A DNA stretch of 35,185 nt. Source: an uncultured Pseudomonadota bacterium. GTDB lineage: Bacteria; Pseudomonadota; Gammaproteobacteria; CAJXQU01. Positions 1,367-34,394 of the stretch are shown piece by piece. Position numbers and translations under genes: made by a program. The stretch lies in NCBI GenBank assembly GCA_913058255.1, contig CAJXQU010000020.1:1-35185 (forward strand), read 5' to 3'. Under the pieces are notes generated by a model, which saw nothing but the letters and a program-made list of their open reading frames with translations, had not been told where the DNA came from and did no database searches. Every line of letters begins with the position of its first letter. Position 1 is the stretch's first letter.

Positions 1367-2326
1367 ATGGCAAGTTGGATAGAATCGCTCGATTCAGCTA
1401 AGTTCTGGATCTATGCAACATTTTGGATAGTTGGATCACTCTATCTATTCACTCGTGCATTTTCAGCATTACACAAAAAACGCCTCATCAATGACACGCC
1501 AACCTCATTACTTCGCTCAGCAGCACAAGGTTATACAGAACTAACCGGGCGCGGAATACATATCGATGGGCCAATGCTGTATTCACCCCTCAGCGGCAGA
1601 GAATGTCTTTGGTATCGCGTCAAAACCGAAGATATTTCTGATCATAATAATCGCTATGGTTATGATCTAGGCGATATCTTCAGGCTATTTGGTTTTTCCA
1701 ACAAAAGCTCTCTTGTTAACATCAATGTTCAAGAAAGCGATGACCTTTTTTATTTAGATGATGACACTGGACGTTGCGTAATTGATCCAGAAGGTGCTGA
1801 TATCACACCATCAACCAAACGTATTTGGTATGGAAACTCTCCTGTTCCCAGTCGAGGGTCGGCATTAAAAGGATCCGCTATAGGGAATCGCTATAAATAC
1901 ACCGAGGAACTATTGTTACCAAGAGACATCTTATATGCCATTGGTGATCTTAAAACCCAAGGAGGCGCAGGCTCGATGACCGATATGCGAGAAGAAGCAC
2001 GAGACTTGTTAGTCGAGTGGAAACGTGATCATAGAACCTTATTGGAACGCTTTGATCGCAACAACGATGGCGAAATATCAGAATCGGAATGGGAGCGTGC
2101 TCGCAAGAACGCGACAGAAGAAATCACCAGCAAACACTCAGGCGACGACGTGCCACTCATCGTCACCTTGCTCAAACAAACCAATGACTCGCGTCGACCT
2201 TTTATGATTTCTTCAGATCCATTACACGATCTAATTGATAAATATCAGAAACATACTCTCTTATTTTTTATTGCCAGCCTCGCTGCAATCAGCACCATGT
2301 TGTGGGTTATCAATATTCGGTTCTAA
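1367..2326 (+). CDS. GIDE-domain membrane protein with an EF-hand
   Basis: This 319-residue protein has a membrane helix near each end (about 12-30 and 297-315) and a central region of the bacterial GIDE type (PF12483; annotated by homology as E3 ubiquitin ligase-like, although no RING finger is visible). The YSPLSGRECLWYRVKTE segment near residue 72-88 is typical. LemA and GIDE proteins are often neighbours, and here the genes are 3 bases apart. Residues 230-241 form a canonical EF-hand loop, DRNNDGEISESE, with D, N, D at positions 1, 3, 5, glycine at 6 and glutamate at 12. That loop suggests calcium binding on one face of the membrane. No ubiquitin-ligase activity should be inferred for a bacterium from the name alone. 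Confidence 0.85.
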   Translation: MASWIESLDSAKFWIYATFWIVGSLYLFTRAFSALHKKRLINDTPTSLLRSAAQGYTELTGRGIHIDGPMLYSPLSGRECLWYRVKTEDISDHNNRYGYDLGDIFRLFGFSNKSSLVNINVQESDDLFYLDDDTGRCVIDPEGADITPSTKRIWYGNSPVPSRGSALKGSAIGNRYKYTEELLLPRDILYAIGDLKTQGGAGSMTDMREEARDLLVEWKRDHRTLLERFDRNNDGEISESEWERARKNATEEITSKHSGDDVPLIVTLLKQTNDSRRPFMISSDPLHDLIDKYQKHTLLFFIASLAAISTMLWVINIRF

Positions 2327-31223: not shown

Positions 31224-32144
31224 ATGAATAGATCAAAAAAACTCATCCCTCTACTCTTTCTAGTTTCGACAATACCACAAGTTGCTTATGCAGAATCTAT
31301 GGGCTCTTTTGAAGAAATCACCGCGCTTGCAGAACAAGGCGATGCAAAAGCTCAACTAGAACTTGGCCAAATCTACGACGTTGGTGATGACCTAGCAGAA
31401 GATAATGTCAAAGCAGTAAAATGGTTCAAGAAGGCTGCCGACCAAGGTAATGCAGAGGCCCAATATGAACTAGCGCTGATGTACGATAATGGTGAAGGGG
31501 TTGAGCAGGACTATACCAAGTCGTTTGAACTGTACAAAACATCTGCTGAACAAGGGCATGCACCCGCTCAATACAACCTTGGTGTCTGCTATGACGATGG
31601 AGAAGGAGTTGAGCAAGACTATGAAAAAGCTGCCCACTGGTATCTGAAAGCCGCTGAACAGGGCGACATCGACTCACAATATAACCTTGGCCTGCTTCAT
31701 GAAGAAGGTGATGGGGTAGAACAAAGTTTTTCAAAAGCCGCTGAATGGTATCTGAAAGCAGCTGAGCAAGGTGATGCTTTTGCACAATATAACCTTGGTA
31801 TTTTATATGATGATGGCAACGGCGTACCGCAAGATAAAAAGCTTGCTGCTATGTGGTACGCAAAAGCCGCTGAGCAAGGTGACTCCGATGCACAGTTCAA
31901 CTTAGCCGTTTGTTATGACGAAGGTGAAGGTGTCCCCCTTGACGATAAAAAAGCCGTTTACTGGTATACCCAATCAGCTGACCAAGGTGACTCTGATGCG
32001 CAATACAACTTAGCCTTAATGTACTTGCATGGCGAAGGCACCAAACAAAACAAAAATAAAGCCATCGAGTTATTGAAGCTAAGCGCTGAACAAGGCGATG
32101 AAGATGCACTTGAGGAATTAAAAGAATTAAATATCGAACTTTAA
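31224..32144 (+). CDS. Exported Sel1-repeat protein
   Basis: This 306-residue protein has a signal peptide (about 1-23, ending AYA) and then seven complete 36-residue Sel1 repeats plus a partial eighth, each of the form A(E/D)QGD..AQ.NL...Y..GEGV.QD...A..WY. The repeats are acidic and form a solenoid for protein-protein contacts. It should be periplasmic. An AAGGA ribosome binding site precedes the ATG. Sel1 proteins act as scaffolds in several settings, but nothing here reveals the partner. A terminator is shared with the convergent groEL. Confidence 0.9.
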   Translation: MNRSKKLIPLLFLVSTIPQVAYAESMGSFEEITALAEQGDAKAQLELGQIYDVGDDLAEDNVKAVKWFKKAADQGNAEAQYELALMYDNGEGVEQDYTKSFELYKTSAEQGHAPAQYNLGVCYDDGEGVEQDYEKAAHWYLKAAEQGDIDSQYNLGLLHEEGDGVEQSFSKAAEWYLKAAEQGDAFAQYNLGILYDDGNGVPQDKKLAAMWYAKAAEQGDSDAQFNLAVCYDEGEGVPLDDKKAVYWYTQSADQGDSDAQYNLALMYLHGEGTKQNKNKAIELLKLSAEQGDEDALEELKELNIEL

Positions 32145-32298: not shown

Positions 32299-33954
<1,656 letters not shown>

Positions 33955-33990: not shown

Positions 33991-34278
33991 TTACTCGATA
34001 ACACCCATGATGTCTTCTTCACGCATAACAACGACTTCTTCACCGTTGATCTTGATTTCTGTGCCAGAATATTTACCGAATAAAACAGTATCACCAACCT
34101 TCACATCTAATGCTTGCACAGCACCTTGATCGTTAGCTTTACCAGGACCTGCAGCGATGACTTCACCACGCATTGGTTTTTCAGTAGCAGAATCAGGAAG
34201 GACGATGCCACCTGCGCTTGTAGTTTCTTCTTCCATGCGACGTACGATGACGCGATCATGTAACGGACGGATATTCAT
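33991..34278 (-). CDS. groES: Co-chaperonin GroES (10 kDa)
   Basis: This 95-residue lid protein caps GroEL. It has the standard [13 protein letters not shown] start, the mobile loop [15 protein letters not shown] and the [13 protein letters not shown] and [17 protein letters not shown] end. A clear AGGAG ribosome binding site precedes the ATG. The upstream region has stacked heat-shock control elements (see the following entries), so groESL is expected to be induced by heat and repressed by HrcA. Confidence 0.98.
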
Positions 34279-34327
34279 CTTTTAAGATCTCCTAAAACAG
34301 ATAAAAATTAAACAAATCGAACAATTG

Positions 34328-34354
34328 TTAGCACTCTATGGTGATGGGTGCTAA
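34328..34354 (-). promoter_or_regulatory. CIRCE operator (HrcA binding site)
   Basis: The inverted repeat TTAGCACTC-N9-GGGTGCTAA matches the CIRCE consensus TTAGCACTC-N9-GAGTGCTAA with one mismatch. It lies between the groES promoter elements and the start codon (50 bases upstream of the ATG), where HrcA would block transcription. HrcA itself is not in the window. Confidence 0.93.
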
Positions 34355-34381
34355 TTATAGGTTTGCATATGGGGGTGTCAA
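34354..34381 (-). promoter_or_regulatory. Sigma70-type groES promoter
   Basis: On the minus strand, TTGACA (34376-34381) and TATAAT (34354-34359) are both perfect and separated by 16 bases. The -10 abuts the CIRCE operator. Confidence 0.85.
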
Positions 34382-34394
34382 GCAGGACTTCAAG
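34367..34394 (-). promoter_or_regulatory. Sigma32-type heat-shock promoter of groES
   Basis: On the minus strand, CTTGAAG (34388-34394) and CCCCATAT (34367-34374) are separated by 13 bases. This is a near-ideal RpoH promoter that overlaps the sigma70 promoter. Confidence 0.88.

Follow-up and report, generated by a model that had tools for sequence, protein, structure and literature searches.

How is a groESL operon controlled when the candidate sites of two sigma factors and a repressor are packed into 67 bases of DNA? This question is raised by the groESL control region in contig CAJXQU010000020.1 of an uncultured gammaproteobacterium, which we analysed over a stretch of 35,185 nucleotides (referred to below as the window). 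On the minus strand, upstream of groES, this region contains a sigma32 (RpoH) promoter, a sigma70 promoter and a controlling inverted repeat of chaperone expression (CIRCE), the putative operator of the repressor HrcA. We consider it likely that groESL is transcribed from two complete, mutually exclusive, interleaved promoters, with sigma70 providing basal expression and RpoH the heat shock response, and that HrcA bound at its operator blocks both of them, so that it acts on groESL directly as well as via RpoH. As far as sequence can tell, triple control of groESL is well supported.

Interleaved promoters and a CIRCE repeat upstream of groES

The three elements overlap or abut (Table 1), as the original prediction had described. 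It had also placed the sigma70 -35 element inside the spacer of the sigma32 promoter, which is borne out, and the sigma32 -10 element lies likewise inside the sigma70 spacer. The pattern CTTGAA-N12-16-CCCCAT was matched upstream of groES at 34369-34394 on the minus strand, and the sigma70 promoter agrees with the consensus at every position (criterion TTGACA-N16-18-TATAAT). Compared to the CIRCE consensus, TTAGCACTC-N9-GAGTGCTAA, the repeat has one mismatch, which is found in the left arm. The nesting had been called unusually clean; this describes the promoters well, but fails for the operator because of its imperfect left arm. Transcription starts had been expected five to eight bases apart. 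As the -10 elements of the two promoters end 13 bp apart, starts about 13 nt apart are predicted instead. To estimate chance rates, we shuffled the 391-bp intergenic region by dinucleotides, 20,000 times for the promoters and 3,000 times for CIRCE. A perfect sigma32 site appeared in six of the 20,000 shuffles and a perfect sigma70 site in five (about 3 in 10,000 each), and none of the 3,000 produced a CIRCE with one mismatch or fewer.

Table 1. Features of the groESL control region and of the CIRCE repeat at rpoH. Positions are those of the window unless a locus or contig is named.
Feature	Position	Strand	Sequence or basis
sigma32 (RpoH) promoter	34394-34367	-	CTTGAAG-N13-CCCCATAT
sigma32 -35	34388..34394	-	CTTGAAG, from sequence; CTTGAA invariant across three congeners
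sigma32 -10	34367..34374	-	CCCCATAT, invariant across three congeners
sigma70 promoter	34381-34354	-	TTGACA-N16-TATAAT, 12/12 consensus
sigma70 -35	34376..34381	-	TTGACA, part of the 12/12 promoter
sigma70 -10	34354..34359	-	TATAAT, one base common with CIRCE; kept in three congeners
CIRCE (putative HrcA operator)	34328..34354	-	TTAGCACCC-N9-GAGTGCTAA, 17/18 arm positions match
Predicted start region	34346..34361	-	from -10 positions
Predicted sigma32 start	~34359-34361	-
Predicted sigma70 start	~34346-34348	-	within CIRCE left arm
groES Shine-Dalgarno	34288..34293	-	AGGAGA, from sequence; 9 nt 5' of ATG
groES (95 aa)	33991..34278, ATG at 34278	-	Pfam Cpn10, E 2.9e-35
groEL (547 aa)	32299..33942	-	Pfam Cpn60_TCP1, E 2e-79
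rpoH CIRCE	L001:1501-1527 = G000:C1:105023-105049		perfect, ~70 bp upstream of rpoH
sigmaE-like promoter	L001 ~1485-1535		GAACTT-N16-TCTTA with extended -10 TGCTAAAAT, embedded in the rpoH CIRCE

The best argument for a likely use of both promoters and of the operator comes from conservation among congeners. Both other genomes of the genus have the identical nested arrangement with identical spacing, and their groES CIRCE repeats contain one and two mismatches. In the three-way alignment, CTTGAA, CTTGACACCCCCATAT, CCTATAATTAGCA and AGAGTGCTAA are invariant, and the DNA upstream of them cannot be aligned. The CIRCE left arms read TTAGCACCC, TTAGCACCC and TTAGCATCC.

Beyond the genus, we used a sample of relatives with mostly one genome per family; the p values treat these genomes as independent, which is only roughly so. 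CIRCE at groES goes with hrcA: it is present in 34 of 35 genomes that have the gene and in 2 of 19 that do not (p 6e-11). These two, G007 and G040, are incomplete (62% and 81%). A TTGAC exactly 27 bp 5' of the repeat is found in 30 of 47 CIRCE-bearing groES promoters, so sigma70 plus CIRCE is the usual form. A perfect sigma32 promoter at groES is scarcer alongside hrcA (5/35) than in its absence (8/19, p 0.04), which makes this genus, with both at full strength, one of a minority. A pattern search of 369 genomes of the class detected nested sigma32 and sigma70 promoters directly 5' of groES in nine genomes from seven families (f1, f5, f21, f30, f64, f66 and f95), together with two chance-like matches elsewhere; the reversed control gave three matches. 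The offset between the two -35 elements is 13 bp in this genus versus 9 bp in the other nested groES promoters. The rarity that the original prediction implied thus does not hold, as nested forms recur in seven families and the same three inputs are documented at Caulobacter groESL. When 84,980 named genomes were scanned for the nested sigma32/sigma70 core, seven matches were obtained, two of them in the congeners. The other five were rejected: four have no CIRCE nearby, and at the fifth (L053), which also lacks a CIRCE, a sigma32 promoter 5' of a grpE-like gene (identified by eye) is combined with a TTGACA ascribed to chance.

One genome of the class (G022, 93% complete, no hrcA detected) has both nested promoters intact next to a CIRCE with seven mismatches (L158, G022:C543:109796-109837). 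This single case fits a decay of the operator after loss of HrcA while the promoters persist, as would be expected of elements that answer to different regulators.

When the groES leader was folded, the CIRCE stem formed, but the leader as a whole was no more stable than its shuffles (z -0.9), and we base no claim about the RNA on it. The operon is flanked upstream by a divergent GNAT acetyltransferase gene at the contig end (34670-35128; Pfam Acetyltransf_10, E 1.6e-18) and downstream of groEL, on the opposite strand, by a gene for a Sel1-repeat protein with seven matched stretches (31224-32144).

Regulator genes and the CIRCE repeat at rpoH

A genome scan for the two regulators, proposed with the original prediction, found both in the 2.78 Mb searched: hrcA at C4:125772 (E 4.2e-66) and rpoH at C1:105119 (407.5 bits, family cut-off 323.1). 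An RpoD-like sigma factor (C3:119364, a 632-residue frame) and RpoE (C6:51553, 299 bits) are also encoded. When up to three mismatches are allowed, CIRCE occurs at exactly three sites in the genome, upstream of rpoH (perfect), hrcA (one mismatch) and groES (one mismatch), the site at rpoH being the only perfect one. A GTG assigned as the start of hrcA, 22 nt after the CIRCE, was rejected because it in fact lies within the CIRCE; the gene probably begins 47-74 bp beyond it. The perfect sigma32 pattern occurs at seven sites in the genome and its reversed control at none, and these sites include, in addition to the one at groES, one 65 bp 5' of dnaK and one 59 bp 5' of htpG (genes named by eye from their translations). 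Another perfect site (G000:C1:15977-16002, L110) is located 48 bp 5' of a frame that by eye resembles a rhomboid-family membrane protease.

That rpoH carries the same repressor site is the less expected and the larger result, although it lies outside the window. In our sample, CIRCE is found at rpoH in 29 of 33 hrcA-positive genomes with a scorable rpoH region, versus 3 of 19 genomes without hrcA (p 3e-7). The rpoH repeats also differ from those at groES in features that were first noticed in, and then counted on, one and the same sample. GAAC[CT] is located 14-16 bp 5' of CIRCE in 21/32 cases at rpoH versus 0/47 at groES (p 2e-11), the third base of the loop is A in 23/32 versus 6/47 (p 2e-7), and the bases after the right arm are AAT in 18/32 versus 1/47 (p 3e-8). 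The consensus of sigmaE promoters is GGAACTT-N16-TCTnA. The features at rpoH fit such a promoter with its -10 element in the left arm and loop of the CIRCE, and they fit an extended -10 element, TGCTAAAAT, that would be completed by the right arm. In a wider search of 369 genomes, counted regardless of the gene downstream, 82 had GAACY at a distance of N9-11 5' of a perfect CIRCE, and the reversed control gave none; the third loop base was A in 47 of the 53 sequences tallied from this search. In one genome (G012, L086), the DNA upstream of rpoH contains tandem CIRCE-like repeats, with an imperfect one 5 bp upstream of a perfect one.

We lean, by a modest degree, towards the view that in HrcA-bearing gammaproteobacteria CIRCE overlies the rpoH promoters in this way, which would rank the repressor above the heat shock sigma factor. 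Signals of cytoplasmic and of envelope stress would then reach RpoH under the control of HrcA, which would govern groESL directly as well as via RpoH.

A proposed circuit and its alternatives

The arrangement of these sites suggests how the circuit may operate. In the unstressed cell, folded HrcA would act as the repressor. Its operator covers the predicted sigma70 start and sits at about +6 of the predicted sigma32 start, so both promoters should be blocked when HrcA is bound. The CIRCE at rpoH implies that HrcA should also limit RpoH, and HrcA would act likewise on hrcA, its own gene. In Caulobacter, HrcA activity depends on GroESL (PMC8119881); by this logic, titration of GroEL would derepress groESL and rpoH together. 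GroEL that is occupied by unfolded protein would leave HrcA inactive and both promoters open, while RpoH would rise and take over at its own promoter, offset by 13 bp from that of sigma70. Newly made GroESL would in turn restore the repression of groESL and rpoH. By acting on groESL directly and indirectly, HrcA would form a coherent feed-forward loop that is closed by chaperone feedback. The imperfect operator at groES and the perfect one at rpoH, seen in all three congeners, suggest an order of affinities within this circuit.

Several points weigh against this circuit. A match to the sigma70 consensus is by itself no proof of use, and work on rhizobia showed that the presence of CIRCE does not guarantee control by HrcA (PMC3989490). 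With 1, 1 and 2 mismatches, none of the three congeners has a perfect CIRCE at groES, whereas the repeat is perfect at 33 of the 47 CIRCE-bearing groES promoters sampled, so repression at groES may be weak. Taken further, the groES repeat could be a relic, with HrcA in this genus acting mainly on rpoH and hrcA and groESL being controlled by RpoH (and sigma70) alone. The degenerate left arm in the three congeners would agree with this, as would their rpoH CIRCE, which is perfect in all three, and their hrcA CIRCE, which has one mismatch where it is readable. However, the arms of the groES repeat retain 17, 17 and 16 of 18 positions despite wholly diverged non-functional flanks, and the seven mismatches in the genome without detectable hrcA illustrate how an unused CIRCE decays. 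We therefore consider a relic improbable.

The promoters could also be fewer than they appear. If only the sigma70 promoter and CIRCE were active, the sigma32 match would be a by-product of otherwise constrained sequence, and the scarcity of separate perfect sigma32 promoters at groES among CIRCE-bearing relatives speaks for this. Yet all three congeners keep a CTTGAA 7 bp 5' of the sigma70 -35 element, where there is no other requirement for it, and CCCCATAT is retained inside a sigma70 spacer that demands no sequence. Six further families have nested promoters 5' of groES in another register, and the perfect sigma32 pattern occurs seven times in the genome, dnaK and htpG included, while the reversed pattern never occurs. 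A by-product is thus highly improbable. Alternatively, both holoenzymes might recognise identical sites in one promoter region, as has been proposed for Caulobacter, whose groESL promoter is thought to respond to both sigma73 and sigma32. In many relatives, what we read as a merged form, CTTGAC-N-CCCTATTAT directly 5' of CIRCE, could serve both sigma factors. At the locus in the window, the -35 and -10 elements of the two sigma factors are instead separate and complete, with an offset of 13 bp, which makes identical sites very unlikely here. Two interleaved promoters under one HrcA operator remain our preferred explanation, and the groES region makes a compact natural test of one repressor gating two competing promoters.

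Comparison with known systems

The literature that we searched, which excluded the survey by Permina and Gelfand (2003), contained no report of the breadth of CIRCE at gammaproteobacterial rpoH genes or of its overlap with a sigmaE-like promoter. That survey is the most relevant earlier one (cited in PMC545781), and it may already describe CIRCE at rpoH in gammaproteobacteria. In delta-proteobacteria, CIRCE is found before groESL, before hrcA and, in Geobacter sulfurreducens, before rpoH, and sigma32-like promoters precede chaperone genes (PMC545781). CIRCE at rpoH has thus already been reported, and the present genome resembles these in all of these respects. The difference lies in extent, as CIRCE at rpoH was reported there for one of the genomes, whereas it is found here in most hrcA-positive gammaproteobacterial genomes sampled and with a sigmaE-like overlay.

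Escherichia coli shares with this genome a sigma32-type promoter at groE and an RpoE input to rpoH, represented here by a sigmaE-like match; its rpoH is listed as RpoE-dependent (PMC5493296). Our search for hrcA in the E. coli control genome gave no match, so its heat shock genes are not controlled through CIRCE. If HrcA indeed acts on groESL, hrcA and rpoH, a repressor would stand above the sigma factor in many gammaproteobacteria, unlike in E. coli, and this wiring could be tested simply in cultured relatives.

The closest known counterpart of the groESL locus is found in Caulobacter crescentus, where sigma73, sigma32 and HrcA/CIRCE likewise act on one groESL promoter region (PMC8119881). 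Neither the parts nor their joint occurrence at groESL is therefore new. Unlike Caulobacter, an alphaproteobacterium, this gammaproteobacterial genome has two complete promoters that interleave with an offset of 13 bp, and this arrangement is a variant of known groESL control.
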